This document shows positions 3,375-63,353 of a DNA stretch of 64,000 bases, piece by piece. The notes beneath the pieces were generated by a model, which did no database searches, was not told the origin of the DNA, and was given only the letters and a program-made list of their open reading frames with translations. Both the position numbers and the translations under genes were made by a program. This DNA is from a virus. The stretch is taken from positions 27,046 through 91,045 of the IMG/VR virus record IMGVR_UViG_3300029258_001504; one strand, 5' to 3'. Position 1 is the stretch's first letter; each line of letters starts with the position of its first letter.

Positions 3375-4973
3375 ATGAGCAACTCCCGCTCAGCCCTACT
3401 GTCCGTTACCGCCGAAGCATGGATTATGCTCGACGGGAAACCTTTTCGTTTGACGGATTGGCCGATGCACCGTGCGTTCTATGACGGGCGCTATCGGCGT
3501 ACGTTGTTTAAGACTAGTCGCCAGGTTGCGAAGTCTACTACGCTAGCGAATTTCTCCATCATCGAGTGCAGTCTTATACCACACTTCTCTACCATGTTCG
3601 TGAGCCCCTCCAAGGAGCAAACGACGCGGTTTTCCAATACGCGTATCGGTAAAACGATGCGCTATTCCCCAATTATCAACGATAAGTTTCTGCGAACGGA
3701 CTTGGCAGACCGCGTCTTCCACAAACAGTTCACGAATGGCAGCGAGATGCTCTTCACCTACGGATGTGATGATGCTGAACGTCTTCGTGGGCCTTCCACT
3801 GACCGGAACATGTATGACGAGGTCCAGGATATTCTGTATGACCCTGTCATCACTGTCGGTAACGAGACGATGGCGGAGTCTGACTACGCGTATGAGACGT
3901 ATGCCGGGACTCCGAAGACGATGGAGAATACCATTCAGTACCTCTGGGAGCTCAGCACCCAGACTGAGTGGGTGATGAAGTGCGAGGGCTGTAATAACTA
4001 CGTGTACATTGACAGTGAGAAGATACTCCAAAAAGAGGGCCCCGGCTGTCCTAAATGTAAAAAATTGCTTAACCCCTTCAATGGCCAATGGGTGGATATG
4101 GCTCCGAGTAAAACACTCCAGGGTTTTCATATTAGTCAGCCGATGATGCCGCGTAACAACCCACATGCAATGAGAATGGCGGGACGTTCCACATCCGAAA
4201 TTCAAGTTGCGGAGCAGCGCTGGTCGCGAATCTTACAGAAATACGAAGAAGCCCCTCTTTCGACTTTTCGGAATGAGGTCTTGGGTGTTTCGGACGAGAT
4301 TGGTAGCCGCTTACTTTCTCAAGAAGAGCTTGAGGCGTTGTGCACAGGTAGAAAGCTGGAGCAGTATCCCCCGCGAGACCACTTAAAGGACATCACACAA
4401 ATCGTTGCGGGCGCTGATTGGTCGGGGGGAGGGACTTCTGGGGTATCCAGGACTGTTCTTTGGATCTGGGGTTGGCGACCTAGAGATCAGAAGCTCGTGT
4501 GCTTGTTTTATAAGGTATACCCGGGAACTAACCCTGTAAGCGCCGTAGAAGAGATCGCATACACTTGCAAGCAGTACCACGTCTCTATGTTCTGCGGTGA
4601 TGCAGGTGAAGGGGCATTAGCTAATGACCTCATGCGCACACACCTCGGACACCACAAAGTGATCCAGGTACAGTATGGTATGCAGGCCAAAGCCTTGAAG
4701 TTCAACCAGATTGACCGCTACATGGGTGACCGCACAACTCTCATCGACAACTACTTCATGCTCTTGAAGCAAAAGAAAGTAGAGTGGGCTCCGTTGGTGG
4801 AGATGCGGGTCGCGATTAACGACATCTTGAACGAGTACGAAGACATCACGCAGAATGACCGGAAGGTTTGGCGCCATTCTCCCCAGAAGCCTGATGACTG
4901 CCTCCACGCTGGCCTCTTTGCGTGGCTAGCGTGGAAGGTCATCAACAAGGATTTCAAATTCTGGCAGGAGTAG
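3375..4973 (+). CDS. Terminase large subunit (DNA packaging ATPase-nuclease)
   Basis: A 532-residue packaging motor. The N-terminal ATPase has an R-type Walker A (SRQVAKST, residues 48-55), Walker B MYDEVQ at 146-151 and a coupling motif GTPKT near 178. A four-cysteine zinc knuckle (C203, C206, C225, C228) sits in the linker. The C-terminal RNase H-like nuclease begins at GADWSGGG (D348), with further acidic residues in GDAGEGA (around 410) and DDCLHAG near the end. The protein pumps DNA through the portal and cuts concatemers. The ATG has no Shine-Dalgarno sequence and follows a -10-like element by 9 nt, so the mRNA may be leaderless. The zinc knuckle is an uncommon addition. Confidence 0.93.
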   Translation: MSNSRSALLSVTAEAWIMLDGKPFRLTDWPMHRAFYDGRYRRTLFKTSRQVAKSTTLANFSIIECSLIPHFSTMFVSPSKEQTTRFSNTRIGKTMRYSPIINDKFLRTDLADRVFHKQFTNGSEMLFTYGCDDAERLRGPSTDRNMYDEVQDILYDPVITVGNETMAESDYAYETYAGTPKTMENTIQYLWELSTQTEWVMKCEGCNNYVYIDSEKILQKEGPGCPKCKKLLNPFNGQWVDMAPSKTLQGFHISQPMMPRNNPHAMRMAGRSTSEIQVAEQRWSRILQKYEEAPLSTFRNEVLGVSDEIGSRLLSQEELEALCTGRKLEQYPPRDHLKDITQIVAGADWSGGGTSGVSRTVLWIWGWRPRDQKLVCLFYKVYPGTNPVSAVEEIAYTCKQYHVSMFCGDAGEGALANDLMRTHLGHHKVIQVQYGMQAKALKFNQIDRYMGDRTTLIDNYFMLLKQKKVEWAPLVEMRVAINDILNEYEDITQNDRKVWRHSPQKPDDCLHAGLFAWLAWKVINKDFKFWQE

Positions 4974-5086
4974 TGCCGCTATGCTGTCGTTCTTGCTCAG
5001 AACCGAGAGCACTCAGTTCCACACACGAAGGCGTCCGGCGTGTAGCTCACCGGCTGGGGTATACCCGGTTTTCCGGCACTAAAAAT

Positions 5087-5395
5087 GGTACTGCTAGGCT
5101 TTGAGTTGGGGTCCTCATCTTAGCGGATAGCGGGATGAGGAGGCCAACTCAGGTACACAGGTACTGCTAGGATGTTCATCGGAGATCCGGGCCCTCGCAG
5201 AGGTGAGACTACGCAGCGTCCGATCATCGCGTAGATCTCCCGCGGAGAGGGCCTCGGATCTCCGAAGAACTCACAGGGGGTACTGCTTTCCTCCTAGTGA
5301 GAAAAGTGTCAGATGGGCAGCTAAGATTTCGTCGTTCGTCCAGTCGGTCCCGAAATCTTGGCGCGGCATCTGACACTCGAACGTGGGGTACTGCT
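5087..5395 (+). repeat. Four exact copies of GGTACTGCT in the hairpin array
   Basis: The 9-mer occurs at 5087-5095, 5160-5168, 5279-5287 and 5387-5395, always in the linker between two stem structures and never inside a helix. The first two copies extend to GGTACTGCTAGG. The spacing (73, 119, 108 bp) follows the sizes of the intervening structures, so these are not helically phased iterons. A related GGTACT sits in a hairpin loop at 63402-63408. Confidence 0.85.
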
Positions 5396-5517
5396 GTCAG
5401 GTGGGAGTCACGTCGTAGCCCGGCTTGAGCCACGTGTGTGATCGCAGGTCACACAGTGGGTCGGCTCGGGCTGTGGCGGTGACACCCCTGGTCGTACCGC
5501 GAGCTCGTGCAGCGTGC

Positions 5518-5541
5518 GAGGGAGTAACTCCCTCTGTTTTT
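5518..5541 (+). terminator. Rho-independent terminator closing the hairpin array
   Basis: An 8-bp perfect stem, GAGGGAGT and ACTCCCTC around a single A, is followed by TGTTTTT. It lies on the plus strand after terminase and the structured array. A second hairpin (GTTTTTC with GAAAAAC) follows directly and may serve the convergent polymerase transcript. Confidence 0.75.
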
Positions 5542-5580
5542 CTGCGTATGGAAAAACGCCAGTACCAAACTCTTTTACCT

Positions 5581-8547
5581 CTAGGAGTCGAGGTTTTCGA
5601 AGTCGCTTTTGATTTCGTGGTCGAGGTAATCGTCGCCACTAATGTCAGCAGGGAGGACGTTCCCTTTCAGGTACTTATCTATGTCAGTAAGTTGTCCGTA
5701 AGAGGGACCTACTTCCACGTCCCATAGGAAAGGGACAGGCAGCCACGGATAGAGCTCTCGGACGCGCTTGACTCCGTATTCGGTGATGAAGTCTTTCATT
5801 TGAGGGACGTACTTTTTGGGAATCTCCGCAACAAGAGAGTCGTGAACTGTGATGAGCAAGTTGCCTCCGAAGTCGTGACGTATGGGTTCGTCAACCGCGG
5901 TGATTACCCTCATGATGATCTCTGAGCTCGTACTCTGGATCAGCATGTTAACAGCCTGCCGCTCAGCCTTGTTGCGCATTTTGAAGGTCATACCGCGCAG
6001 GTTGAAACGGCGCCGTCTTCCAAAGAAGGTCTCTACGCACCCGAGGTACTGGATCTTCTCTTTAGTCTTCGAGATGTACTCTGGAATAGTAGGGAACATT
6101 CGGAACAAGGATTCGATGATGGCAGCAGCTTGAGCTTCTGGGATCCCTACAATACTGGCGATCTTTTTAGGTGCGGCTCCGTAGAGGATGCCGAAGACCA
6201 CCCGTTTGATGTTTCCCCGGAGTTTACCGAGCTGTTGACCGTAAGCGACGTCAGGGCCTGGGTCCTCCTCAGTCCCCGTATAGTATCCACGCTTTTGGAA
6301 ATCTTCGTAGCTCCAGTCGTGTACGTCGTCGATCCCGACTAGCGCCAAGACCGAAGATTTCTCGGAAGCCCGAACACCTTCCAGGATCGTAGCGGGGTTG
6401 AGGACTCTAGAGGAGAAGAAGCTGTGAGGGTCCAGACCTTCGTTGAGAGCGCTAATCAGGTTTTCATCTCGACTATATGCGGCGTAGAGGCGCACCTCTG
6501 CGGCCTTGGCATCAGCGTTCATCATGACTTGCGTATCCGGGTCAGTTGGAATGAACGACTGTTTGAGGTTGTGGTCCCCGATCTTCTTGGGGATGTTTTG
6601 CATGTTCTCATCCACGGAACTTAGCCTTCCGGTAGCTGTTCCGTGGATGTTAAAGGTGGTGTGCATCCTCCCGTCTTCTTCACTCAGTACGAGGATGTTA
6701 CGTACGAAAGTGTCTCGGGCTTTGGTGATCGCGCGGTACTTCAAGAGGGTGTCTGAGAACTGACAGTCATACTGGTTTTTGAGCACGCGCAAGAACTTGG
6801 CGTTCGTAGAGATTAATCCCGTGCCTGTACGCGGGATATCTTCATCAGGGATTTCTCCGGTATGACATACCATCCGCCCTGTTTTGGGGTGTAGGTAACC
6901 CGCTGTGAAGAGGATCCGTCGTAACTGTGCCACGCTTTTAGGGTTGAAGTCTTCGTTGACTACTCCGTTAGGGAGCATGAGTTTCAACTCTGCGTAGAGG
7001 TTACGTGCCGACCTACGCATCTTCTCGTCGAGGTCCAGGACGTATGGGCGGTCGACACGCATCCCGACCTCTTCCATCCGAGCTAACGTACGCGTGACAG
7101 GGATGAGTTGCTGAAACATGAGCGCTTTGAGAGGCTCTTTCTCCGGCGTGCCAGGAGCTGCTAGCGCTGCAAAGTACGTGTTCGTACTGATTTTTCGACG
7201 ACGCGCGTTCAGGTCTTTCTGTTCAGCGAGCATCCTCTTACGCTGGACGAGAGCAAGTTGCCGAGTAACGTCAGCGTCAATCGCCCCGTACACGCTCAAC
7301 TTCTTAAGAGGGACGAAGGCGTACCCGTAGTCTTCATCGAGCTTCTTAGCAGCACCCTTCAATTTTGGGGCGTTAGGGTCTCGTTCGAGTGACGCTTTGT
7401 ACTCGAGGACTCTCTTCCGGTAAACTGCTTGCATCTCGTCTTCGTATCCGCCGTATTTAGGGAGGAAGCTCTGCGTCAAGGACTTCAGGTCGTAGTACCC
7501 CTTTTTGGCCTCAGCAAGAAGGTGTTCTGCTAGCATTGTGTCCCAAGCCAGCTTCTCTACGTCCCACCCTTTACGTCGTAAAACTTTGAGGTCGAACTTG
7601 GCGTTGTGAAAAACTTTAGGCTTAGGGCACGTGAGAAGCTGCTGGATATATGGGGCCACTTCCGCCAATGTCAGAGGACTCTCGTCGTGTTCGATAGGGA
7701 TTGAAGCGGCTAAGCCAGGGCCCCAAGAGAACACGAAGGTTAGAATCTTGAGCTTTTCGCGGTGCGGAAACAGGGTGTTAGTTTCTGTGTCTACTGAGAT
7801 GACGTGCGTATCGGGGTTTCTCCCCTCAGGAGCGTAGGCGACTACTTCTTCGACGAGTTTCTGGACCGCACGAACGGATTTGGGGAAGCGGTAGTCTTGG
7901 ATGAGCATGTCCGTAGGGGTGATGATCTGTACGGATCTTCCCGCGCGTACTTCCAGTACTGCATCCAAGAACTGGTACAGTTGGCGCATCAGGATTTCGT
8001 GGTGCTCCGGATTTGCCGCAAGTTGTCGCTTAGATAATGACGGCATGATGATGACACGGCGTCCACTGAGCGTCGCTTCGACGAGCCTGCCCTGGAGTTT
8101 TTTGTACCCCGAGACCTTAATCCCTAGGGACTGGAGGACCGCGGGTCCTAGCGCAAAGATCATGATGGGGCGTTTAGGATTCGCAGCTTTTAACAACTCA
8201 GGTTTGAAAAGTTTCGAGCAGGCTTCTCGTATCTTCTTGTTAGGCTTGTCGACAGCGCAGCGGACAGCGTACGAAAAGCGTCCTCGCAATTGCCGGTAAC
8301 GATTCTTAGTGGCTACCGTGTCTGTAACAGACCGTTTCACGATAGCTTCTACGTCGAATCCCCAAGGAGTGTGTTTTGTGAGGGAACTCGATACGCCGGG
8401 TACGTGAGGAGACTCGGCTACACAGAAGAAGTCGACATTTTGTTGTGTGCCGACTCCTTCCATGTAGTGTTCTTGTTGGTAAATCGGACAGTCGGGACAG
8501 GATTCGCCTTTCCAAGCGGTCTGTCCGCAGAGATTACAATCGAGCAT
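5581..8547 (-). CDS. Family A DNA polymerase with N-terminal UDG-like domain
   Basis: A 988-residue replicative polymerase. Residues 1-200 resemble family 4/5 uracil-DNA glycosylases: cysteines C4, C7, C17 and C20, AESPHVPG near 44-51, C97 and C110 in the iron-sulfur positions, then FALGPAV. The 3'-5' exonuclease follows, with Exo I DTET (D253, E255), Exo II HNAKFDL and Exo III YGAIDAD. The polymerase has the GRLSS and NIP segments, motif A as NADAKAAEVR (the usual DYSQIELR is diverged but the aspartate remains), motif B KRVVFGILYG and motif C VHDS. Phage SPO1 polymerase is known to have the same UDG-like fusion. Whether the domain excises uracil is not evident. GGGGG precedes the start. Confidence 0.95.
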   Translation of the reverse strand: MLDCNLCGQTAWKGESCPDCPIYQQEHYMEGVGTQQNVDFFCVAESPHVPGVSSSLTKHTPWGFDVEAIVKRSVTDTVATKNRYRQLRGRFSYAVRCAVDKPNKKIREACSKLFKPELLKAANPKRPIMIFALGPAVLQSLGIKVSGYKKLQGRLVEATLSGRRVIIMPSLSKRQLAANPEHHEILMRQLYQFLDAVLEVRAGRSVQIITPTDMLIQDYRFPKSVRAVQKLVEEVVAYAPEGRNPDTHVISVDTETNTLFPHREKLKILTFVFSWGPGLAASIPIEHDESPLTLAEVAPYIQQLLTCPKPKVFHNAKFDLKVLRRKGWDVEKLAWDTMLAEHLLAEAKKGYYDLKSLTQSFLPKYGGYEDEMQAVYRKRVLEYKASLERDPNAPKLKGAAKKLDEDYGYAFVPLKKLSVYGAIDADVTRQLALVQRKRMLAEQKDLNARRRKISTNTYFAALAAPGTPEKEPLKALMFQQLIPVTRTLARMEEVGMRVDRPYVLDLDEKMRRSARNLYAELKLMLPNGVVNEDFNPKSVAQLRRILFTAGYLHPKTGRMVCHTGEIPDEDIPRTGTGLISTNAKFLRVLKNQYDCQFSDTLLKYRAITKARDTFVRNILVLSEEDGRMHTTFNIHGTATGRLSSVDENMQNIPKKIGDHNLKQSFIPTDPDTQVMMNADAKAAEVRLYAAYSRDENLISALNEGLDPHSFFSSRVLNPATILEGVRASEKSSVLALVGIDDVHDWSYEDFQKRGYYTGTEEDPGPDVAYGQQLGKLRGNIKRVVFGILYGAAPKKIASIVGIPEAQAAAIIESLFRMFPTIPEYISKTKEKIQYLGCVETFFGRRRRFNLRGMTFKMRNKAERQAVNMLIQSTSSEIIMRVITAVDEPIRHDFGGNLLITVHDSLVAEIPKKYVPQMKDFITEYGVKRVRELYPWLPVPFLWDVEVGPSYGQLTDIDKYLKGNVLPADISGDDYLDHEIKSDFENLDS

Positions 8548-13922: not shown

Positions 13923-14975
13923 ATGGAATCGGCAAGCGCGTTTAACGATAGGACATTTAAAGCGTACTATGAAGACTTGGGAAAGCACCCGTTATTGCGT
14001 CCCAAAGAAGAGCGCGCGCTTCTTAAGCGTTACAACACGTGCCCTCATTGCGACGAGCTAATCCCTCACAAAGTTCGCAGACCTTACTGCACTGAGTGTG
14101 GCGCCAACGCTCCCGTAGAGGGTGACGAAAACGCCACGGAATACTACTTAACTCTTTGTACCGCGTGCGGGGACAAATTTGAAACTTACTATGCTCCACC
14201 TTATTGCTTGAGGTGCGGTAGAGGGCGAGATCTCGATGCTCGTGAACGTATTGTAAACGGTAATTTGCGATTCGTTGTACGCATGGCGAAGTCCATTACT
14301 AAAGACCCGTACCGAATACAACAACTCACGTCAGCGGGAAACGTCGGGCTGCTCATTGCAATCGACAAGTTCGATATCACTCAGGGGACGCGCTTCTTGA
14401 CCTACGCGGCACATTGGATCCGAAAAGAGATGTTTGATGAGATCCAAAGTAGCAGTATTGTGCACGTCCCCTCCCACAAACATAAGTCGCACCGCAGAGC
14501 GCAACGTACCACGTCGTTTATGTGCCGCCATTGCGACTATCGAGTAGATGGCGATATTACCCCTAGAAGCCTACCGCCATGCCCTTCAGGTGAGGCTCAC
14601 GACTTCCTGCCAGTGGTTGACCAGGAAGCTCTCAACATCATGGTCCCTCTCGAGAACGCCCAGGGTCGTCCGATACCTCTTACGAGTGACTCCGATATGG
14701 AGGAAGAAGTCATTGACGCTACTGTCGCAAAGATGATTCGCGACGTGCTTTCCAAGATCCCAATGCGTGCGCGTGACAAGTTTATCTTACTCCAGTACTA
14801 CAACATCCCTGAAAAAACGCGCCGAACTTCTTCGAAGAGTCTTCACCAACTTGCAGTACTCGCCGACCTGACTCCGGAACGTGTCCGGCAGATCAAGCAG
14901 CGACTACTGCAAGAGGTGAAGTTAGAGTTCCGAAGATTGTCAGTGAATGATTTGAGCGATCTCTGCGCGGAATAA
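13923..14975 (+). CDS. Sigma-70 family factor with zinc-ribbon insertions
   Basis: A 350-residue sigma factor. Residues 8-37 resemble region 1.2. Region 2 lies at about 105-172 (RERIVNGNLRFVV, TSAGNVGLL, RFLTYAAHWIRKEM), which melts the -10 element. A helix-turn-helix region 4 at about 315-345 (SLHQLAVLADLTPERVRQIK) reads the -35. Two CxxC...CxxC ribbons (C40/C43/C56/C59 and C79/C82/C95/C98) are inserted between regions 1.2 and 2, and a third cysteine cluster (C201, C204, C220) replaces much of region 3. Insertions of this kind are not typical of bacterial sigma factors. With the phage polymerase genes at 23.9-31.6 kb, it probably directs that enzyme or redirects host polymerase. Confidence 0.88.
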   Translation: MESASAFNDRTFKAYYEDLGKHPLLRPKEERALLKRYNTCPHCDELIPHKVRRPYCTECGANAPVEGDENATEYYLTLCTACGDKFETYYAPPYCLRCGRGRDLDARERIVNGNLRFVVRMAKSITKDPYRIQQLTSAGNVGLLIAIDKFDITQGTRFLTYAAHWIRKEMFDEIQSSSIVHVPSHKHKSHRRAQRTTSFMCRHCDYRVDGDITPRSLPPCPSGEAHDFLPVVDQEALNIMVPLENAQGRPIPLTSDSDMEEEVIDATVAKMIRDVLSKIPMRARDKFILLQYYNIPEKTRRTSSKSLHQLAVLADLTPERVRQIKQRLLQEVKLEFRRLSVNDLSDLCAE

Positions 14976-14977
14976 CG

Positions 14978-16054
14978 CTATTCCTTCAGACCGGAAGCCA
15001 GCTCCAGACCGTGGAGCACACCCTTCAAGAACTGCTTGGTCTTCTCTGACGTGGCGCGCGCCATGCGCTCGGAGTGACCGTTGAGGTAGGCAAGGAGCTC
15101 CGTCTTGTTCGAGGGGCGGATGTCAGCCTTACGGTCATCATAGGTCGGAACCTCGGCTTCTGGACGTCCGGGGCCCTTCTTGGGCTCTTCCGGCTTCTTC
15201 CCTGCGCCCTTCTTGCTGGAAGTGTCCTTCCCAGCGGCTTTGTCCTTGGCCTTCTGCGCCTCTTCCTTCTCCTTTTGGCGCTGCTTGTAACGGTCGAGAT
15301 ACGCTTTCGTCTTCTCGTCCGCTTCGGGGGCGCTGAGACCCTTGGTTACCATCTGTTCGAACAGGCGGAAGAAGAAAGTGGAATGTTCTTCCACATTGAC
15401 GCGGCAGAGGATGCGCGCCTGGGACATCGAGATGACGTCCTTCGCGATAGCTTTCTGTACCGCACTGTCGAGGTCGAGGAGCGACAAGTGTTGCGAAACG
15501 AACCCCTCGGAGACGCCACCTGCCCGGGCGATCTTGCGGTTATTCATACCTCCTTCGATCAACTCAGAGAACGCGTTGGCGATCTCCATAGGGTTGTGAC
15601 CTTCCCGGTTGATGTTTGCCACCAGGGACTTGGTGTAGGCTTCGGTCTCATCGCCCGCGGTGAACGTAACGAACGCATTTTTGATTTTCGCGTCTTGGAG
15701 CGCCATGTAACGCCGCCGCCCATCCACGAGGACATATTTCCCCTTCTTGGTGGGGTGAGGCTGCACGACCATGGCGACGATTTGCCCGATGGTCTTGAGC
15801 GACGTGGTCAATGACCCGAGGTTACCGGGCTTGTCCCGGTTCCACTTGTCCGGGAGCTCGATGTCAGTGAGCTTCACAACGAAGTTGTTCTCCGCTACCG
15901 GCTCTTCCTTCTTGACAGGGGCTTTCTTCTTCGGAGCTTTACGCTCAGTCTTCTCTGGTGCCTTGGCGTCAGTCACGTTTTTCTCCTTCTGGTTTTTTGA
16001 CTCTTGGGTGTCGGCAGACACCGGGGTGTCTTTGTTCTCTTGTTTTTCGGTCAT
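14978..16054 (-). CDS. ParB/Spo0J-like DNA-binding protein
   Basis: A 358-residue protein. A lysine-rich disordered N-terminus (1-60) leads into a ParB N-terminal domain with LVDGRRRYMAL, matching the conserved box of ParB proteins, then a helix-turn-helix (NNRKIARAGGVSEGFVSQHLSLL). The C-terminal part is a highly charged linker plus a short helical domain. ParB proteins bind centromere-like sites and many act as CTP switches; phage copies may act in partition, replication or regulation. No ParA ATPase gene is present in this window. CGGAG precedes the ATG. Confidence 0.85.
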   Translation of the reverse strand: MTEKQENKDTPVSADTQESKNQKEKNVTDAKAPEKTERKAPKKKAPVKKEEPVAENNFVVKLTDIELPDKWNRDKPGNLGSLTTSLKTIGQIVAMVVQPHPTKKGKYVLVDGRRRYMALQDAKIKNAFVTFTAGDETEAYTKSLVANINREGHNPMEIANAFSELIEGGMNNRKIARAGGVSEGFVSQHLSLLDLDSAVQKAIAKDVISMSQARILCRVNVEEHSTFFFRLFEQMVTKGLSAPEADEKTKAYLDRYKQRQKEKEEAQKAKDKAAGKDTSSKKGAGKKPEEPKKGPGRPEAEVPTYDDRKADIRPSNKTELLAYLNGHSERMARATSEKTKQFLKGVLHGLELASGLKE

Positions 16055-23854: not shown

Positions 23855-26800
23855 ATGCCTAATCTGACTCCCCTAATGGTCGGGCCTGATCAGCGCCGAG
23901 AACTCATCCGCCAGAAGGTTGTTGAGGGGCTGAAGGAGTCCTTTCCGATACTTTCTCGGAACAAGACTATCGAAGTTGATGATGTTGAGGTGGTCGGGAA
24001 AGACTACAGCCCCTCTGAACAGAAGAAAGCGATCCTCACGGGCGACTCCTTGTTCGAGTCCGTGAAGGGTACAGTGCGGATGAAGGACAAGGACGGAAAA
24101 ACCATTGACGAGATGAAGAACTTCACCCTCGTCAGAGTGCCATATTTCACCCCACGGCACACATTCATCATCGGAGGCAACGAGCATTCGGTGTCGAACA
24201 TGGTTCGCCGTAAGCCGGGAGTGTACTCGCGTAAACGGGCTAACGGTATTCTCGAAGCAGGATTCAACACGTTGGGCGGTGCGAACTTCCGTATCAGTAT
24301 GGACCCTGCGAAGGGGCAGCCTCAACTCGAGTACAGTTCGACTAAGATCCCGCTCTATCCTATTCTCAGGAAGTCGGGCGTTTCTCACGATGAGATTTCT
24401 AAATCTTGGGGTCCGAAGCTTGCCGACGCTAACGCGAAAGTATTGGAGCCAAAGGCCGACAAGTATGTCGACAAACTGTACAAGAAAGAGGTCCCCACTT
24501 ACGCGCAGAAGTCGGAACAGGATTCCGTGACTAAGATGCGTGAGGTTCTGGAGCGTTATCGAAACGCTAAAATGGACCCTAACGTTAATCGACAGACCAT
24601 TGGTAAACCGCACGACCATGTGTCGCCTCAAAGCCTCTTGGATGCCTCGACTAAGGTCCTCAAGATCTTTAATAACCAGGCTGAGGTCGACGACCAAGAT
24701 AACCTAGGGTTCAAGACCATCATGTCCGTGGACGACTTCTTCAAAGAAAGGATCAAGCTCCACGCCAGAGAGGTGGCGAAGAAGGCATCTATTAAGATGG
24801 AAGCGACGCCCAACTTGAAGAAGGCGATCCCTTCCGGGCCCTTTACGAAAGACCTCCTCAAGTTCCTATCGACGACTACGCTGTCTTCGATTCCGGACCA
24901 GACTAACCCAGTAGACCTCATCGACTCTGCGATGCGGGTCACTTCTTTGGGTGAGGGTGGCATTTCTACGGAGCGGGCTATTCCTATTGAGGCACGCCAG
25001 ACACACGTGACCCAGATGGGGGCCCTTGACCCTATCCGTACTCCGGAGTCCATGCGCGCTGGAATCGACATTCGTGCCGCAGTGACCGCGCAGAAGGACG
25101 AGAATGGCGATATCTACGTCCCAGTTTACGACGTAAAGTCCAAGCGAGAAAAGTACGTCAAAGCGGGGGACCTTCAAGAATCAGTGTTGGCGTTTCCGAA
25201 TCAGGAAATTCGGGGCACTGTGGACGCGGTAGACCGCGGTGTTGTTCGCCGTGTTCCTGCTCGGAAGGTGAACTACCAGGTCCCGCATCAATCCCGCATG
25301 TACAGTCCGACGACAAATCTCATCCCATTCTTGGAGTCCGCACAGGGTAACCGTGCGGTGATGGGATCCAAGATGCAGGTTCAAGCACTGTCGCTCGTCG
25401 ACCGCGAGGAACCATTTGTACAAGTGGCTACTCCCTCAGGTAAGTCGTTTGAGAACATGATCGGTAAGATCATCAACCCTTACGCACCCGTTAGCGGAGT
25501 TGTTAAGAAGGTGGATGATGATTTCATCTACATCCGCCCTCATGAAAAAACAGCCGCTCGAGGTCCGGCTCTCGTGAAGGTTCCGTACGATAAAAATTTC
25601 CCGCTAGCGGCCAAGACTTATTTGAACCATGACCTTTCGGTTAAGCCTGGAGACGAAGTCAAAGCGGGGCAGCGATTAGGGGACTCCAACTTCACACGCA
25701 ACGGCACCCTGGCGCTTGGTAAGAACATGAGCGTAGCGTTCATGCCCTACTACGGGGCAAACTCCAATGACGCAGTAGTCGTAAGTGAAGCCGCGGCGAA
25801 GAAACTTACGTCTGAGCGCATGTACAAGATTGTCATCCCTAAAGATCCCGATCTGACATTCAGCGCGAACAAGCACAAGTCCTACTACGGACACAACTAC
25901 ACCAAAGACCAGTACAAGCCTATAGACACAGACGGTGTAGTCGCTCCGGGGACTAAACTGCTCCCCGGGGATCCTGTAGTCGTAGGCGTACGCAAGACGG
26001 AGCTCTCCCCTGATGACCTCATTCTCGGGAAGCTTCACAAGTCATTGGCCCATCCTCACCGTGAGTTCACACAGGGATGGGACCACGATCACGAGGGTGA
26101 GGTTATTGACGTAGTGAAGACCCCGAAGCGCGTCACCCTCACCGTGAAGACTCGAGAGCCTGCGGGGATCGGGGACAAAATTGCGGGTCGCTACGGCAAC
26201 AAAGGTGTCATTTCAGAGATCGTTCCTGATGGCCAAATGATTCAGGACGAGGCAGGCAAACCCGTCGATGTTCTTATGACGTCGGCAGGGGTGGTGTCGC
26301 GTATCAACCCAAGTCAGATCATCGAGACCGCTGTAGGTAAAGTGGTAGAGAAGACCGGTAAGCCTATCGTAGTGGACAACTTCACAAACGAAGACAACGT
26401 AAAGTGGGCAAAAGATTTACTACGTAAACACGGAGTCAAAGACAAGGAAACGGTCTATGACCCACGTTCGGGGAAGAAGATTCCGAAGGTCTTCGTAGGG
26501 CGCCAGTATCTCTATAAGTTATTCAAGACTACTGATAACAACTACAGCGCACGTAGCACGGGCACCTACGACATGAACTTGCAGCCTACTAAGGGCGGCG
26601 TTCAAGGTGCGAAGGCCATCGGCAAGATGGAGTTCGACGCTCTTCTCGGACACAACGCCCGCAACATCCTCCGGGAAGTTGCGACGGTGAAGAGTCAGAA
26701 GAATGACGAGTTTTGGCGCGGTGTACAGCTGGGCATGACTCCTCCAGAACCGAAATCGACTTTCGCGTATGACAAGTTCGTCGGGATGCTCACCGGAGCT

Positions 26801-28213
26801 GGTGTGCGTGTCCGCCGCGACGGTAGTAGGGTAGCTCTTGGACCTCTTACTGATGACGACGTCAAGGAGATGTCTTCGGGAGAGGTGAAGGACGCTAAGA
26901 TCGTTCGTGCGAAAGACCTACGTCCCGAAGCGGGGGGCCTGTTCGACCCGGGAGTAACTGGCGGTCTTCGAGGGACGCGATGGTCACATATTGACTTGGC
27001 TGAGCCCATTGTAAATCCTGTATTCAAAGAGCCAGTTCGCCGCCTTCTCGGTATGACGAACGCGCAACTCTCCCAGACGCTGCAGGAGAAGGGCGGAGCG
27101 CACATCAAGCGTGAGTTGGGCAGGCTCGATCTTGACCAGAAAGAGAAAGACATACGCAAACAGATGAAGGGGCGTAAGGCTGATCAGCTTGACAACGAGG
27201 TTAAGCAGCTCAAGTACATCAACGCTCTTCGTAACGTGGGTCTCACACCTGATAAAGCGTACGTTGTTAGTAAAGTTCCGGTACTACCTCCGGTGATGCG
27301 CCCGATCATGCCCGGTAAGGGTGGAACGCAGATCATCTACGGGGATACTAACCCTCTCTACCAAGACCTCATCTACATCAACAACCAGATGAAAGAGGTT
27401 AAGAACCCCAAGACGCCCACCCCTCCCGGCGAGGAAAAGAAATTGCGCCCAGCCTTACAGCAAGCAGTAGGCGCGGTGTACGGGACTGACGAACCCGCTA
27501 CGGCGAAGTCCAAAGCACGTAACCACAAGGGTTTCTTGACGTACATCTCCGGTGTTGGAGGTCCCAAGCATGGTTTCTTCCACTCGAAGCTTATGTCCCG
27601 AACTCAAGACGTGGCTGGCCGCGGGACTATCGTTCCAGATAGCACCCTTGGAGTAGACGAAGTTGGAGTTCCCAAGGACATGCTTTGGGGGATGTACGAC
27701 AAGTTTCTCATTCGCCGACTTGTCCAACAGGGTTTCCCAGCTGTTCAGGCTAAGCAGATGGTAGAGAAGCGCCACCCCGCCGCGGAAGAAGCACTTCGAC
27801 GAGAAGTCCAGGAGCGTCCTGTCCTCATGAATCGTGCTCCAACGTTGCATCGTTACAATGTTGTTGCCGCTAAGCCGGTACCTGTCCCTGGGCGCACCCT
27901 CCGAGTTAACCCGTTCGTGGAAGAAGGTATGAACGCCGACTACGATGGGGACACAATGATGCTCCATGTTCCTGTAGGTCCTAAAGCGGTCGAGGACGCG
28001 AAGAATATCACCCTCTCGAATCTTCTTTTTGGGGACAAGTCCAAAAGTGACCTACTGGTGTTTCCGCAGCATGAGGCGATCATGGGTATCCACCACGCGT
28101 CTCGTGTGGATGACAAGAATAAGACGCCCAAGAAGTTCAAGACTAAGGCTGACGCCATGGCTGCGTATAAGCGTGGTGAGATTGGTCTTGGGACGCGTGT
28201 GAGTATCGGTTAA
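23855..28213 (+). CDS. RNA polymerase beta subunit fused to N-terminal half of beta'
   Basis: A 1452-residue fusion. Beta landmarks run in order: VPYFTPRHTFIIGGNE, SSIPDQTNPV, MGALDPIRTPESMRAG, PFLESAQGNRAVMGSKMQ, FMPYYGANSNDAVVVSE, GIGDKIAGRYGNKGVIS and the C-terminal SARSTGTYDM segment. From about residue 1020 the beta' part begins: GLFDPGVTGG, VLPPVMRPIMPG, SRTQDVAGRGTIVPD, VLMNRAPTLHR and the magnesium motif NADYDGD at 1360-1366. It ends about 85 residues later, before the bridge helix. The N-terminal zinc ribbon of beta' is missing. The protein is much shorter than its bacterial counterparts. The rest of beta' is the gene at 29800. Confidence 0.92.
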   Translation: MPNLTPLMVGPDQRRELIRQKVVEGLKESFPILSRNKTIEVDDVEVVGKDYSPSEQKKAILTGDSLFESVKGTVRMKDKDGKTIDEMKNFTLVRVPYFTPRHTFIIGGNEHSVSNMVRRKPGVYSRKRANGILEAGFNTLGGANFRISMDPAKGQPQLEYSSTKIPLYPILRKSGVSHDEISKSWGPKLADANAKVLEPKADKYVDKLYKKEVPTYAQKSEQDSVTKMREVLERYRNAKMDPNVNRQTIGKPHDHVSPQSLLDASTKVLKIFNNQAEVDDQDNLGFKTIMSVDDFFKERIKLHAREVAKKASIKMEATPNLKKAIPSGPFTKDLLKFLSTTTLSSIPDQTNPVDLIDSAMRVTSLGEGGISTERAIPIEARQTHVTQMGALDPIRTPESMRAGIDIRAAVTAQKDENGDIYVPVYDVKSKREKYVKAGDLQESVLAFPNQEIRGTVDAVDRGVVRRVPARKVNYQVPHQSRMYSPTTNLIPFLESAQGNRAVMGSKMQVQALSLVDREEPFVQVATPSGKSFENMIGKIINPYAPVSGVVKKVDDDFIYIRPHEKTAARGPALVKVPYDKNFPLAAKTYLNHDLSVKPGDEVKAGQRLGDSNFTRNGTLALGKNMSVAFMPYYGANSNDAVVVSEAAAKKLTSERMYKIVIPKDPDLTFSANKHKSYYGHNYTKDQYKPIDTDGVVAPGTKLLPGDPVVVGVRKTELSPDDLILGKLHKSLAHPHREFTQGWDHDHEGEVIDVVKTPKRVTLTVKTREPAGIGDKIAGRYGNKGVISEIVPDGQMIQDEAGKPVDVLMTSAGVVSRINPSQIIETAVGKVVEKTGKPIVVDNFTNEDNVKWAKDLLRKHGVKDKETVYDPRSGKKIPKVFVGRQYLYKLFKTTDNNYSARSTGTYDMNLQPTKGGVQGAKAIGKMEFDALLGHNARNILREVATVKSQKNDEFWRGVQLGMTPPEPKSTFAYDKFVGMLTGAGVRVRRDGSRVALGPLTDDDVKEMSSGEVKDAKIVRAKDLRPEAGGLFDPGVTGGLRGTRWSHIDLAEPIVNPVFKEPVRRLLGMTNAQLSQTLQEKGGAHIKRELGRLDLDQKEKDIRKQMKGRKADQLDNEVKQLKYINALRNVGLTPDKAYVVSKVPVLPPVMRPIMPGKGGTQIIYGDTNPLYQDLIYINNQMKEVKNPKTPTPPGEEKKLRPALQQAVGAVYGTDEPATAKSKARNHKGFLTYISGVGGPKHGFFHSKLMSRTQDVAGRGTIVPDSTLGVDEVGVPKDMLWGMYDKFLIRRLVQQGFPAVQAKQMVEKRHPAAEEALRREVQERPVLMNRAPTLHRYNVVAAKPVPVPGRTLRVNPFVEEGMNADYDGDTMMLHVPVGPKAVEDAKNITLSNLLFGDKSKSDLLVFPQHEAIMGIHHASRVDDKNKTPKKFKTKADAMAAYKRGEIGLGTRVSIG

Positions 28214-29799
28214 TGCCCTACTCCTCACCAGCTCAACGCGCCGCAGTCTGGGCTAACCGGAAGTACCAGGATGTAGAGAACCTGGACGCGGTCGTGATCG
28301 ATAGTCCTTCTACTGGCATCAAGATGACCAAGAAGGATGTGCTGGATTACTATTCTACTCCCGAGGTACGTCGCCGCCTTTTCCGTGAGCTTAAGGACAA
28401 GGATCTGCTTACGGTTATGAACCGGGAGCCGAATACTCCTATTGTTCGACGTTACCGTAAGAAGGATGAACCTATCCGAATCCCTACAGGGAAGGACATC
28501 GACTGGTACACATCGAGACGTTACACGGAGTTCCACCCAACCATCGGGAAGACTACGAACCAGGTGTGGGTGGACATCGATGCGGGCAAGGACGTGGGGA
28601 TCGAAGAGCTGAAGCCTGCGGTCCGCGCGGTTCAACGTGAAGTCCAGAAGATCCCCGGAGTCAATAAGACTGATGTCTCTTTCTCTGGCGGTACGGGGTT
28701 TTATGTTCGGGGTCAGCTGGATGCTGAACGCGACACCAACAAGCTCGAACGCACGGTCAAGCGCATCATGTCGAGGTTGGCTCGCCGTAAGAATCCTTAC
28801 ACGGTAACGCCTCCGGAAAAAGACCAAATCCGTCTGGACGTTTCCACTTTCCACGACCAGGGGTCTATCCGAGCGCCCTACTCATTGAATAGTGAGACGG
28901 GCCTGGTCTCCGTACCTGTAAGGGATAATGAGCTTAAGAGATTCGACCCGGCAACCCATGCCAACCCTCTTGAAGTCGTCACACGTCTCCGCACTAAGAA
29001 GAAACCTAAGGAGTTCGCTCCGGGGATTCCCGCGGGGAAACCCGTAGAAAAAATTCCTACATTCCGGCAACCCAAGTCTTGGATGTTAGCTGTACAGGAA
29101 CACAAGGCTGAGCGTGCAGGTAAGCACTACGATCTCCGTCTCGTCGATCCCTGGACAGGGCACGCCCATTCTTGGGCTCTCCCGAAGGCGAAATTACCAT
29201 CTACTCGAGAGAACGTGTTGGCGATTCAAACCCCTACCCATACAGCCGACTACGCTCTAGGGTTCGGAGCATCAGGTCCGCAACCCATCATGAAAGGCTA
29301 TGGGAAGGGATCTGTTGAGATTAAGCATAAGGAACCGGTTCAGGTTACCGCCGCCTCTCCGGATAAGGTAAAATTCAAGAGACGTGTAGGTGGTACTGAG
29401 GAGGACTACGTGTTATTCCGAACCAAGGAAGATGCGTGGTTATTGAGGAATGTGACGGATATGAGAAAGACAGCCCTACAAAAAATGTCGGCTTTCTGGG
29501 AAGGGTTTGACCGTGTGCTCCAGAAGTTGGGGGCTACGCGGGAGATCCGGTCACGCTTAAAACAAAAACGTCTCAGTACAAGTGAGGCTCAACAACCTAT
29601 GGAGAACGCGGATGAGGGGATGCCCGCATCGGAGTTGGCGGGTCTCCTCAACACCTTGAGAGTTCCAGAGCGACAGGGTGGTAACAAGGCGGATGACCGG
29701 GTAGAGGACCGGCTTAACCGTCCGACTTCTTGGGGTCCCAAGGAGGAGATTTCGCACGAGACGGCCACAGGACCCTCGCCTATTGGGTTGGGATTTTAG
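28213..29799 (+). CDS. LigD-like AEP polymerase plus 3'-phosphoesterase
   Basis: A 528-residue protein lying between the two polymerase genes and overlapping the first (TAATG). Residues about 110-240 resemble an archaeo-eukaryotic primase/LigD polymerase: VWVDID (D121, D123), FSGGTGFYV (158-166), RLD (D209), then RAPYSLNSETGLVSVPV. Residues about 288-415 match the LigD 3'-phosphoesterase: QEHKAERAGKHYDLRL (H297, H305, D307), HSWALPK, and HTADYALGF (H343). No ATP-dependent ligase domain is present and no Ku gene is seen nearby. In bacterial NHEJ these domains add ribonucleotides to DNA ends and trim 3' ends. The role here is unknown; repair, priming or 3'-RNA trimming are options. Confidence 0.8.
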   Translation: MPYSSPAQRAAVWANRKYQDVENLDAVVIDSPSTGIKMTKKDVLDYYSTPEVRRRLFRELKDKDLLTVMNREPNTPIVRRYRKKDEPIRIPTGKDIDWYTSRRYTEFHPTIGKTTNQVWVDIDAGKDVGIEELKPAVRAVQREVQKIPGVNKTDVSFSGGTGFYVRGQLDAERDTNKLERTVKRIMSRLARRKNPYTVTPPEKDQIRLDVSTFHDQGSIRAPYSLNSETGLVSVPVRDNELKRFDPATHANPLEVVTRLRTKKKPKEFAPGIPAGKPVEKIPTFRQPKSWMLAVQEHKAERAGKHYDLRLVDPWTGHAHSWALPKAKLPSTRENVLAIQTPTHTADYALGFGASGPQPIMKGYGKGSVEIKHKEPVQVTAASPDKVKFKRRVGGTEEDYVLFRTKEDAWLLRNVTDMRKTALQKMSAFWEGFDRVLQKLGATREIRSRLKQKRLSTSEAQQPMENADEGMPASELAGLLNTLRVPERQGGNKADDRVEDRLNRPTSWGPKEEISHETATGPSPIGLGF

Positions 29800-31599
29800 A
29801 TGTCGACGCAAACACTAGGACAGCTTCTGCTAAATCAGCATATTCCCGAGCAATATCGGCTGTCAGGAGAGTCGGGGAAGGGTGAGCTCAAAAAGAAGAT
29901 GAATGAGCTCGCGCATAAAGATCCCGTAGCTTACGTCAAAACGATCACTGACCTCAAGCGGGAAGGTGACGCGTTAGCTACGATGGAGGGCCTTTCTATT
30001 GGACTAGACGACATCGCTCCTGACTATAGGAATCGCAATAAAGTCCTGAAACCTTACGTCACAGCTTTTGACAAAGCTACTACGGATAAACAACGCAGCA
30101 GGATCGCAGAAGATGCCCAGGAGAAGATGGTGGGAATTTCGACCTCACACCCTGGGACGATGACTCAGCAAGTTCGGAGCGGGGCACGAGGAAAGCCTGT
30201 GCAGTTTTCGAAGATCGTGGGCTCCCCTGCTGCGGCCCGTGACCCTTACGGTTTTACTGAACCTTGGCTAATTCGAAAGTCTTACAGTGAGGGGCTCAAA
30301 CCTTCGGACTATTGGGTCGCAGGTAACGAGGCCATTCTAGACACTATCAAGAGTACCGTCTCTGTTTCGGAGCCTGGCGAGTTGACCAAGATACTAATGG
30401 CCAACATGGCGGATGCTCTGGTAACGGAAGTGGACTGCGGAACGCACAACGGCATTACGATGGAGGTTACCGACCCGAACATCGTAGATCGTTATCTGGC
30501 ACGGGATACTGGAAAGTTCCGCAGGAACTCTTTAGTTACTTCCGATATGCAGACGAAGCTTCGAAAGAGTGGGGCTTCCAGGGTGTTGGTGCGCTCCCCT
30601 ATGACTTGTGAGGCAGATGATGGTGTCTGTCAAAAGTGCCAGGGGCTGAACGAAAAGGGAAACGTACACGAATTAGGGGTTAATGTAGGAGTACGTTCCG
30701 CTTCTGCAATGGGGGAACCGCTCAGTCAGTTCGCTTTAGATGCCAAGCACGGAGTTCGCACAGCCAAAGGTGACCGAATGCGCCTGCAGGGTGTTGCGGG
30801 ATTCCGACAGATCATCGAGTCTCCCAAGCAGTTCATGAATAAAGCTACGCTAGCGGACATTGACGGTAAGGTATCAAAAATAGAGAAAGCTCCCCAGGGA
30901 GGCTCCTACGTACACATAGGTAACACACAACACTTCGTAGCTCCTAATTTGGGAGTAGTCGTGAAGAAGGGTGACGCCGTGGAAAGGGGCGACCGCCTTA
31001 GCGAAGGTATCCCTAAGCCAGATGAAATCGTGCGCCACAAGGGGCTGGCCGCAGGGAGGCTTTACCTCGTAAATACCCTGCGAGATTTGTATGAGAACCA
31101 GGGGAAGACTCTGGATCAACGACATTTTGAGTTGCTTGCAAAGAACGAACTGAACCATGTTCGCGTTCTCGATGACCCGACTAATAAGTTCATCAAGGGG
31201 GACGTGGTTTCGTATAACAAGTTGCGCTCTTCTTTGGCTTCGGGAACTAAGGAGGTCCCCGTCAACGAGACTCTCGGACAAACTTTAGGAAAGCCCTACT
31301 TTCACTTCTCTGTAGGGCAGAGAGTCACCCCCTCTGTATTACATTACCTTAAGAAGGAGGGGTTAAAGACCATTGCGATTGCCCCGCGTGCTCCAGAGGT
31401 AGAGTTCATCATGAAACCTGCTTCGCGTGCCCCGCTACTCCATCCGGATTGGCTTGCGCGCCTCGGTCATCGTAACTTGAAAAGCACACTCCAAGAAGCG
31501 GCACATTTTGGGGATATTTCGAATCTGCACGGAACACACCCTGTTCCTGCGTACGCATATGGCGTAGACTTTGGTCGAGGAGAGAAGGGGCGGTACTGA
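29800..31599 (+). CDS. RNA polymerase beta' C-terminal half
   Basis: A 599-residue protein completing beta'. SGARGKPVQF and GLKPSDYWVAGNEA correspond to the segment before the bridge helix, and the run ending DALVTEVDCGTHNG to the bridge helix and first zinc cysteine. TCEADDGVCQKCQG supplies the other three zinc cysteines. VGVRSASAMGEPLSQFALD matches the trigger-loop start (bacterial GEPGTQLTMRTFH) but is diverged. The C-terminal clamp region follows. It must pair with the preceding fusion to form an active site. Stop and start overlap with the next gene (TGATG). No alpha or omega gene is recognised in the window. Confidence 0.9.
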   Translation: MSTQTLGQLLLNQHIPEQYRLSGESGKGELKKKMNELAHKDPVAYVKTITDLKREGDALATMEGLSIGLDDIAPDYRNRNKVLKPYVTAFDKATTDKQRSRIAEDAQEKMVGISTSHPGTMTQQVRSGARGKPVQFSKIVGSPAAARDPYGFTEPWLIRKSYSEGLKPSDYWVAGNEAILDTIKSTVSVSEPGELTKILMANMADALVTEVDCGTHNGITMEVTDPNIVDRYLARDTGKFRRNSLVTSDMQTKLRKSGASRVLVRSPMTCEADDGVCQKCQGLNEKGNVHELGVNVGVRSASAMGEPLSQFALDAKHGVRTAKGDRMRLQGVAGFRQIIESPKQFMNKATLADIDGKVSKIEKAPQGGSYVHIGNTQHFVAPNLGVVVKKGDAVERGDRLSEGIPKPDEIVRHKGLAAGRLYLVNTLRDLYENQGKTLDQRHFELLAKNELNHVRVLDDPTNKFIKGDVVSYNKLRSSLASGTKEVPVNETLGQTLGKPYFHFSVGQRVTPSVLHYLKKEGLKTIAIAPRAPEVEFIMKPASRAPLLHPDWLARLGHRNLKSTLQEAAHFGDISNLHGTHPVPAYAYGVDFGRGEKGRY

Positions 31600-62573: not shown

Positions 62574-62644
62574 TGCGGGATAGAGAAGTGGCAACTCGGG
62601 GGTCTCATAAGCCCCAGGCCCGGGTTCAAATCCCGGTCCCGCAA
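62574..62644 (+). tRNA. tRNA-Met (anticodon CAT)
   Basis: The acceptor TGCGGGA (62574-62580) pairs with TCCCGCA (62637-62643). The D arm is GAG/CTC, the anticodon stem GGGGT/GCCCC closes a CTCATAA loop with CAT at 62606-62608, and the T arm is CCGGG/CCCGG with loop TTCAAAT. CCA is not encoded. A methionine (or modified isoleucine) identity is inferred from CAT alone. Confidence 0.9.
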
Positions 62645-62659
62645 CTGGTCTTTGAAAAT

Positions 62660-63045
62660 GGGCTCGAAACGGTTTCGACGGGTACGATTGGAAGTGTGCT
62701 GTGCGTGTTCCGCTTTGTGGGTTCAGCGGGTTAAAAAGGACTCTCAACACGAACTGCCAACAACGTAGTTCCCTTCCCGACCGCTTCGGTGACTCCGGTC
62801 GCCAAGGCTGCCTAAACAGGCACGGGCGTGCCCTGAGTGAGGAGCTCGAGTAACTCAGGGGGCGTAATTACACGAGCAATCCCAGGCCGATTTCTACGCG
62901 ATGACGCCGGGCAAACGAAAGCGTAGTAAGACCGCAGCAACTCGTCTCTTGGAAGCTGCTGTCTAAACTAAAGAGAGACCACACACGTAACGATCAGTAC
63001 ACAACCCGTATTCGGACGCGGGTTCGACTCCCGCCGGGTCCACCA
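62660..63045 (+). ncRNA. ssrA: Transfer-messenger RNA (tmRNA)
   Basis: A complete one-piece tmRNA of 386 nt. The 5' GGGCTCG (62660-62666) pairs with CGGGTCC (63035-63041), the D-loop segment GGTTTCGACGGG is present, and the 3' T arm (GCGGG, TTCGACT, CCCGC) is followed by an encoded CCA. The tag frame begins at GCC 62756 and ends at TAA 62813-62815, reading ANNVVPFPTASVTPVAKAA, which is 19 residues. The stem around GGCACGGGCGTGCC after the tag is a probable pseudoknot. With SmpB it frees ribosomes stalled on broken messages. Phage tmRNAs are known but rare. Confidence 0.93.
62756..62815 (+). other. tmRNA tag reading frame
   Basis: GCC-AAC at the resume position resembles other bacterial tmRNAs, which resume on an alanine codon. 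Nineteen codons end in VAKAA and TAA. Typical bacterial tags are about 8-15 residues and end in ALAA or similar; the lysine before AA and the length are unusual. Confidence 0.75.
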
Positions 63046-63077
63046 CAGTTGGCAGCTGTGAAAAAGCGATGGGCTTC

Positions 63078-63105
63078 TTTGTCGCTATACAAAATAAGGT
63101 ACAAT
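63078..63105 (+). promoter_or_regulatory. Candidate promoter TTTGTC-16-TACAAT
   Basis: It lies after the tmRNA and upstream of structured sequence and tRNA-Glu. There is no protein gene for 470 bp downstream, so it would drive RNA genes. Confidence 0.5.
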
Positions 63106-63111
63106 ACCGGG

Positions 63112-63272
63112 ACAAGTTGCGTTGAGTCCGAGAAGCAAAAGACGCATGCGCCTGGGGAGGGCGCAGGCTATAAGTACTCCCCCTTTGTTAACGTAGTCAG
63201 GAGAAGGTCCGGATGGTCGATGTCTTCGGTCTGGTTACTTCACGAAGTCCCGGGTAGCCTTCTCCTTATTTT
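63112..63272 (+). ncRNA. Putative structured RNA ahead of tRNA-Glu
   Basis: AGGAGAAGG (63199-63207) pairs with CCTTCTCCT (63258-63266) and extends inward through TCCGG/CCGGG; an inner CTTCG/CGAAG helix (63223-63227, 63243-63247) is also possible. TTATTTT follows, as in a terminator. The upstream part has GGGGAG/CTCCCC. It could be a terminated small RNA, or a precursor trimmed at the tRNA. Confidence 0.4.
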
Positions 63273-63346
63273 GGCCCCGTCGTCTAATGGTTTAGGACAT
63301 CGGCCTTTCACGCCGAAGATTGCGGGTTCGAGCCCCGCCGGGGTCA
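63273..63346 (+). tRNA. tRNA-Glu (anticodon TTC)
   Basis: The acceptor GGCCCCG (63273-63279) pairs with CGGGGTC (63339-63345). The anticodon loop CTTTCAC in a CGGC/GCCG stem gives TTC, and the T arm is GCGGG/CCCGC with TTCGAGC. CCA is not encoded. Confidence 0.92.
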
Positions 63347-63353
63347 CTATCGG

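Follow-up and report, generated by a model that had tools for sequence, protein, structure and literature searches.

A modular structured element with a repeated closing strand beside the terminase gene, a putative RNA family of uncultured large tailed phages

Results

The gap between the terminase and DNA polymerase genes

The window, i.e., the whole stretch of 64,000 nucleotides that was analysed, comprises bases 27046-91045 of a virus record of 91,045 bases. It harbors convergent genes for a terminase large subunit and a family A DNA polymerase, and the gap between them is filled by an array of structured units. A sequence-only reading of this DNA had described five units alike in plan and joined by an exact 9-mer. 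Four exact copies of this 9-mer, GGTACTGCT, were indeed located on the plus strand at 5087, 5160, 5279 and 5387 (spacing 73, 119 and 108 nt), with a chance expectation of 0.39 per whole 64 kb window; three more single copies are scattered elsewhere in the window. Long hairpins also exist as had been proposed. They are apparent as inverted repeats. The folding energy of the region amounted to -295.5 kcal/mol compared to -230.8 kcal/mol in shuffles (z = -10, plus strand; z = -8.5 for the fold of the minus strand). Direct repeats found in the array by repeat search were only 11-14 nt long. The features of the locus are:

3375..4973, plus strand: terminase large subunit gene (GpA_ATPase and PHROG terminase), directly upstream of the array
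4971..5081, plus strand: module A, a separate complete module, 8-bp P1 found by script
4971-4978, plus strand: module A, P1 5' strand TAGTGCCG
4979-4980, plus strand: module A, CU, followed by a branched interior
5035-5053, plus strand: module A, P3-like hairpin, imperfect in the window
5056-5066, plus strand: module A, P4
5074-5081, plus strand: module A, P1 3' strand CGGCACTA
5087..5566, plus strand: module B, four s1-P2 units followed by P3, P4 and one P1 3' strand (scanner and pairing probabilities)
5087..5095, plus strand: P1 5' strand copy 1 (GGTACTG) and CU, preferred partner of 5560-5566
5102..5151, plus strand: P2a hairpin (inverted repeat I3, 18-nt arms, 89%)
5160..5168, plus strand: P1 5' strand copy 2 and CU, exact repeat
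5174..5270, plus strand: P2b hairpin (inverted repeat I2, 21-nt arms, 86%)
5279..5287, plus strand: P1 5' strand copy 3 and CU, exact repeat
5305..5377, plus strand: P2c hairpin (inverted repeat I1, 27-nt arms, 81%)
5387..5395, plus strand: P1 5' strand copy 4 and CU, exact repeat
5396..5490, plus strand: P2d hairpin, approximate limits (minimum-energy fold)
5518..5534, plus strand: P3 hairpin GAGGGA-GUAAC-UCCCUC, GUNNC loops being conserved in relatives
5535..5558, plus strand: P4 hairpin, GUUUUUC...GGAAAAAC (fold and scanner)
5560..5566, plus strand: P1 3' strand CAGTACC (inverted repeat I8), complementary to all four GGTACTG copies
5581..8547, minus strand: family A DNA polymerase gene, convergent to the terminase gene, ending 15 nt beyond P1

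The described likeness in plan holds for four of the five units, the P2 hairpins of module B, while the first one is module A, complete in itself; it does overlap the terminase stop codon (4971-4973), at which its P1 5' strand begins. The end of the array had been set at 5541 but lies at 5566, where the partner strand (5560-5566) ends. An intrinsic terminator at 5518-5534, assumed to follow the last unit, was rejected. The window P3 is followed by UGUUUUU, but this T run is part of P4, and the same conserved P3 hairpin is without a U run in relatives.

The sequence CCAGTAC(C/A), 5-8 nt and TWTACC abuts the polymerase stop codon (window 5559-5579, plus strand) and is kept in relatives. TTATACC near this stop codon was retained even where the last P1 differs (L013, L015, L022).

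Elsewhere in the window, genes at 23855-31599 (plus strand) and 13923-14975 (plus strand) matched PHROG families of the RNA polymerase beta subunit and a protein with sigma-70 region 2. It thus seems that a multisubunit RNA polymerase is encoded by the phage itself, in which case its promoters and terminators may follow unusual rules. A ParB-like protein (HTH_ParB) is encoded at 14978-16054 (minus strand). At 62574-63347 (plus strand) a tmRNA was detected (Rfam, 108.6 bits), which has a long predicted tag of 30 residues and is flanked by tRNA-Met and tRNA-Glu. Further tmRNAs were found in the contigs G007, G008, G013, G014 and G016.

The linker is one strand of a variable helix

A terminase search gave 35 loci for comparison. 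In loci with a last P1 of the window type, the 3' end of the array reads CCAGTACC or CCAGTACA and is situated shortly before the polymerase stop codon. The former is complementary to GGTACTG and the latter to TGTACTG, which indicates that the linker forms one side of a helix. GGTACTGCT comprises the P1 5' strand (s1) and a fixed CU, and the partner of s1 is the 3' strand (s2) CAGTACC at 5560-5566. The linkers had been thought to stay unpaired. Partition functions contradict this for copy 1, which was predicted to pair with 5560-5566 at a mean pair probability of 0.93; the unpaired probabilities of copies 2, 3 and 4 were 0.23, 0.70 and 0.28, respectively.

The same gap contained other numbers of linkers in relatives. 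There were three in L006, three in L017 (two exact GGTACTGCT and one GGCACTGCT), one GGTACTGCT plus eight GGCACTGCT in L016, and three CGTACTGCT in L019. Several relatives have a zero gap between terminase and polymerase, and the element is thus optional at this place. Equivalents of the linker in other phages included CGUACUGCU, AUGCCGCU, UGUGUUGCU and UUUUGUCGCU, each with its own matching 3' strand. When the gaps were searched for helices with a 5' side ending in G|CU and a 3' side C|C, at least one was found in nearly every gap, the sequences being different. The P1 pairs thus obtained included GGUACUG/CAGUACC, UGUACUG/CAGUACA, GUGUUG/CAACAC, AGUGCCG/CGGCACU, UUUUGUCG/CGACAAAA and AUGCCG/CGGCAU.

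Compensatory changes became visible between close relatives. In P1 of module A, TAGTGCCG/CGGCACTA of the window is replaced by TAGTGCTG/CAGCACTG in L006, a change from C-G to U-A, and L016 (ACTTTTGTCG/CGACAAAAGT) and L017 (ACTATTGTCG/CGACAATAGT) also differ by a compensatory P1 change. Module A of L006 has a perfect P3, CGGCGT-GUAGC-ACGCCG. The P2 arms of the window and L006 are unrelated despite 87% identical terminases. A k-mer search of P2 arms revealed no enrichment beyond pieces of P1 and P3 except a modest excess of GAGCTC/GAGCTCG. In L402, L361, L372, L378, L012, L014 and the window, the palindrome GAGCTC occurs within P2 arms or in the stretch that follows; this may be chance or reflect a kissing or dimer contact.

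Module plan and statistical support

All modules follow the order P1 - CU - P2 - P3 - P4 - C - P1'. P2 is a long variable part with one or more hairpins and at times a nested module, and P3 is a stem with a GUNNC loop (GUAAC, GUUAC, GUAGC, GUAUC and GUUGC were seen). Module B shows every feature of this rule; module A has P1 and CU, with an imperfect P3. Using one fixed rule, 44 modules were identified in 23 intergenic regions of related phages (11.7 kb), compared to a mean of 0.02 and at most one module in 60 dinucleotide shuffles. The opposite strand yielded two modules, the reversed or complemented sequence none. Invariant over the 44 modules were CU after s1, the G, U and C of the P3 loop, and C before s2; CU and C belong to the search rule itself. 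A purine, nearly always G, directly before the P1 5' strand is also constant across phages.

In the core alignment of the 44 modules, 98.7% of the cells were paired, compared to 57.1% in shuffles and at most 43.8% when the partners were slid; a slide by one column was sufficient for pairing to collapse. Changes on both sides occurred in 219 cells (55.5 in shuffles). The covariation score was 1.09 versus 0.24 for shuffled rows, with all 12 core pairs covarying, and the compensatory changes expected earlier for relatives were thus found on a massive scale. The rows had been picked by a rule that requires pairing, so the module count against shuffles is the cleaner test of reality, while the alignment shows the freedom of the helices. 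We regard it as near certain that the family and its module architecture are real.

Distribution in the phage clade

We scanned most of 14 clade contigs and the window contig, with A-U or G-C as innermost P1 pair. Modules were present in 13 of these 15 contigs, often two or more, and absent in G005 and G007. Thirty-three modules with a P1 of at least seven Watson-Crick pairs were found in 1.79 Mb of clade contigs and none in the controls. Unrelated viral loci (2.1 Mb), a set consisting of chance matches among those listed in database pattern scans, contained three strict modules. Among the matches listed, these pattern scans gave copies of the window phage, one known relative and otherwise chance matches. 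Lone hits in the contig scan, e.g., in G004 and G006, may be chance as well. All modules examined fall outside credible genes. The largest array, six tandem modules, follows the terminase gene in G013, and four tandem modules are located away from terminase in G011. A second locus adjoins a putative lytic-enzyme gene, as read from the sequence, in G001, G003, G009, G012 and G016; two of these, G001 and G003, lack a gap after terminase. The closest terminases of isolated phages are about 30% identical, and these phages are without such a gap after terminase.

Three further observations were made. At the second locus of L361, L378, L392 and L411 the modules are followed by a terminator-like A/T-rich hairpin on the strand of the flanking genes, and a transcript of the lytic-enzyme gene may therefore run antisense through the modules. 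In L033 (contig G007) another 9-mer, CCACTACGG, occurs four times after terminase at about 4581-5780, in a phage that yielded no module; these repeats are possibly another type of array. L359 (QMZE01000001.1), a relative of the window phage, was assigned by binning to a genome of Archaeoglobales recovered from Guaymas sediment. As the clade carries tmRNAs, this assignment may be wrong.

Several 5' strands for one 3' strand

A repeated P1 5' strand with a single 3' strand was observed in module B of the window and in L006, L015, L016, L017, L019 and L293. The P1 sequences differ among these loci, and the repeats are altered by one base in L016 and shortened in L293. Each repeated 5' strand carries a different P2 after it. 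Partition functions favoured the first 5' copy in all seven loci (0.73 to 1.0), which suggests one large junction enclosing all arms. L005 and L006 share 363 of 367 aligned bases and differ by the precise absence of one s1-P2 unit, indicating that such units behave as blocks.

Strand of the element

At the terminase locus, G-U pairs made up 9.4% of the helices predicted for the terminase strand, compared to 5.1% for the opposite one; phage tRNAs treated in the same way gave 9.6% and 1.8%. This is moderate support for an RNA of the terminase strand. No strand preference was seen at other loci (6.4% and 6.7%); there, both genes next to the modules mostly lie on the opposite strand. In P3 there was no G-U pair in 220 cells of the 44-row alignment, which is unusual for RNA and keeps a role as DNA possible. 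The folding energy was better for the terminase strand in 13 of 16 arrays, but this strand test was set aside since most of the difference follows from base composition. The element is likely an RNA of the terminase strand.

Comparison with known RNAs

The earlier view of a structured, diversified tandem array without a known RNA family was upheld. Rfam 15, including GOLLD, ROOL, tRNA and tmRNA, gave no match at gathering score on either strand of the window region, and at E <= 5 only chance-level microRNA and snoRNA matches were obtained for 4900-5700. Rfam models revealed nothing meaningful in nine relatives either. No description of the element was found in open-licence papers on structured RNAs of phages, RNAs with four-way junctions and antitoxin arrays of type III. 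As in the packaging RNA of phage phi29, the helices of a module enclose a multi-way junction, and the modules here stand beside the terminase gene. Unlike that RNA, the modules have no Rfam match, occur many times per genome and also far from terminase, and are missing between terminase and polymerase in several relatives. A pac site or packaging RNA, one of the functions suggested for the array, seems unlikely, as the zero-gap relatives carry modules elsewhere. A replication origin, likewise suggested for the array, is conceivable.

GOLLD and ROOL, termed ornate RNAs, are large, highly structured phage non-coding RNAs of unknown function, often located near tRNA islands (PMC12286853). In GOLLD, the 3' region is constant and the 5' region variable (PMC12286853), similar to the constant P3-P4-P1' and the variable P2 described here. 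In contrast to both RNAs, our element is a small module repeated in tandem, has a repeated P1 5' strand and lies beside terminase or other genes. TIGR arrays, too, are series of stem-loops found in phages and contain short complementary segments (PMC12045711), but they alternate 8-12-nt repeats with 9-nt spacers or have dual spacers flanked by C and D boxes, whereas here a single element (s1 and CU) is repeated in units of 73-119 nt. No Nop-domain (PF01798) Tas gene was found in 10 clade contigs, which are possibly incomplete (archaeal controls were positive), and no C/D boxes flanking s1 or s2 were seen by eye in the window. ToxI-type antitoxins consist of multiple copies of a single RNA, to which an endoribonuclease toxin binds (PMC8860590). 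Tandem RNA units are common to both systems, but the P2 arms here all differ and the neighbours are terminase and DNA polymerase. CRISPR arrays have repeats of about 25-36 nt and similar spacers, while the longest direct repeat family here has 14 nt and two copies.

Two other candidates were dismissed. Pairing of the linker in trans with host or phage RNA was rejected as a general role, for the linker changes with its partner in cis; complementarity to the phage tmRNA was 6 nt at most, and matches of the array to the remaining contig, sense or antisense, were unremarkable. Transposon target-site duplications, i.e., 9-bp direct repeats around palindromes, do not agree with the covariation of the 9-mer with s2 across phages, and no terminal sequence common to the P2 arms is evident.

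Discussion

We consider the array of the window a two-module case of a modular structured non-coding family that is undescribed so far and is carried by a clade of uncultured large tailed phages. The element is most likely an RNA with terminase-strand sequence, and a trans-acting structural role as scaffold or sponge is the most probable one; this account has, in our estimation, about an even chance of being correct. A fold that recurs with different sequences in most related genomes must do something. The RNA would be co-transcribed with terminase. P1, P3 and P4 with the fixed CU, C and loop may constitute a constant core for one partner, which could be a second copy of the RNA or a protein of phage or host, and the P2 arms would be free to vary and multiply. 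Since only one s1 at a time can pair with the 3' strand, either all arms are held in one junction or arms are exchanged; the large junction closed by copy 1 would be the energetically preferred option. In a variant that we put forward only tentatively, the 5' half-modules compete for or share the single 3' half, and the transcript assembles different junctions or cross-links itself via spare strands, with one partner binding the core and the arms serving as variable information against a host factor.

It is rather unlikely, if conceivable, that the element acts as DNA, forming cruciforms or single-stranded hairpins that are read by a structure-specific DNA protein in replication, recombination or packaging. 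The perfectly Watson-Crick P3 of nearly every module would suit such a site, as would the strand preference, weak at the terminase locus and lacking elsewhere, and the always intergenic location without a constant sense relation to genes. However, the G-U share on the terminase strand is RNA-like, one strand is singled out by conserved asymmetric features (CU and C at opposite sides, U first in the loop), and closed multi-helix modules with giant P2 arms are unusual for DNA sites. We are similarly doubtful about an insulator in the untranslated region, by which structure shields 3' ends or limits read-through and antisense RNA. Any hairpin would suffice for this purpose, so the fixed junction, loop and CU/C over 44 modules as well as arrays of up to six modules exceed the need; moreover, zero-gap relatives manage without an array between the same genes, and P3 of relatives is not followed by a U run. 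The insulator would nevertheless fit the position of the array exactly between convergent terminase and polymerase genes and the strong T-tract hairpins past the modules on the gene strand at the second locus.

That the RNA is a defence decoy, a sponge whose variable P2 arms imitate what host nucleases or sensors target, we judge quite unlikely. The complete turnover of P2 at 87% terminase identity while the core persists, the gain and loss of units and the patchy presence per locus would be expected of a decoy, but unconstrained arms would turn over too, the similarity of P2 to the rest of the phage contig is at chance level, and no host factor or neighbouring defence gene was found. The sequence-only reading favoured recognition or cutting of the linkers by one factor. 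That the linkers are a universal sequence for recognition or cleavage is not supported, since only CU and the preceding purine are constant across phages and P1 varies freely with its partner. A precursor of small RNAs cut at GGTACTGCT linkers is accordingly improbable: exact linkers do separate different hairpins, and L016 has eight identical GGCACTGCTGT, but the linker is unconserved across phages, covaries with the P1 3' strand and is predicted to be paired in copy 1, and many modules have no repeated linker. Lastly, tandem stem-loops in a phage and short complementary strands resembling dual spacers bring to mind a guide-RNA array of the TIGR or CRISPR kind. With a unit spacing of 73-119 nt instead of 36, many s1 for one s2, no C/D boxes seen around s1 or s2 in the window and no Nop-domain gene in 10 clade contigs, such an array is extremely improbable.

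Few large structured phage RNAs are known; GOLLD and ROOL are two of them. We know of no other case of small closed tandem modules with a repeated closing strand. The broad kind, a large phage RNA of unknown function, is known, and the family and its modular plan match none that could be compared. If the element is RNA, it adds a family, present at one or more loci in most genomes of the clade, in which structure is strongly conserved while the arms change fully between near relatives. The explicit rule P1 - CU - P2 - P3 (GUNNC) - P4 - C - P1' allows more members to be found, and the division into a constant core and variable arms offers a direct route to the binding partner.
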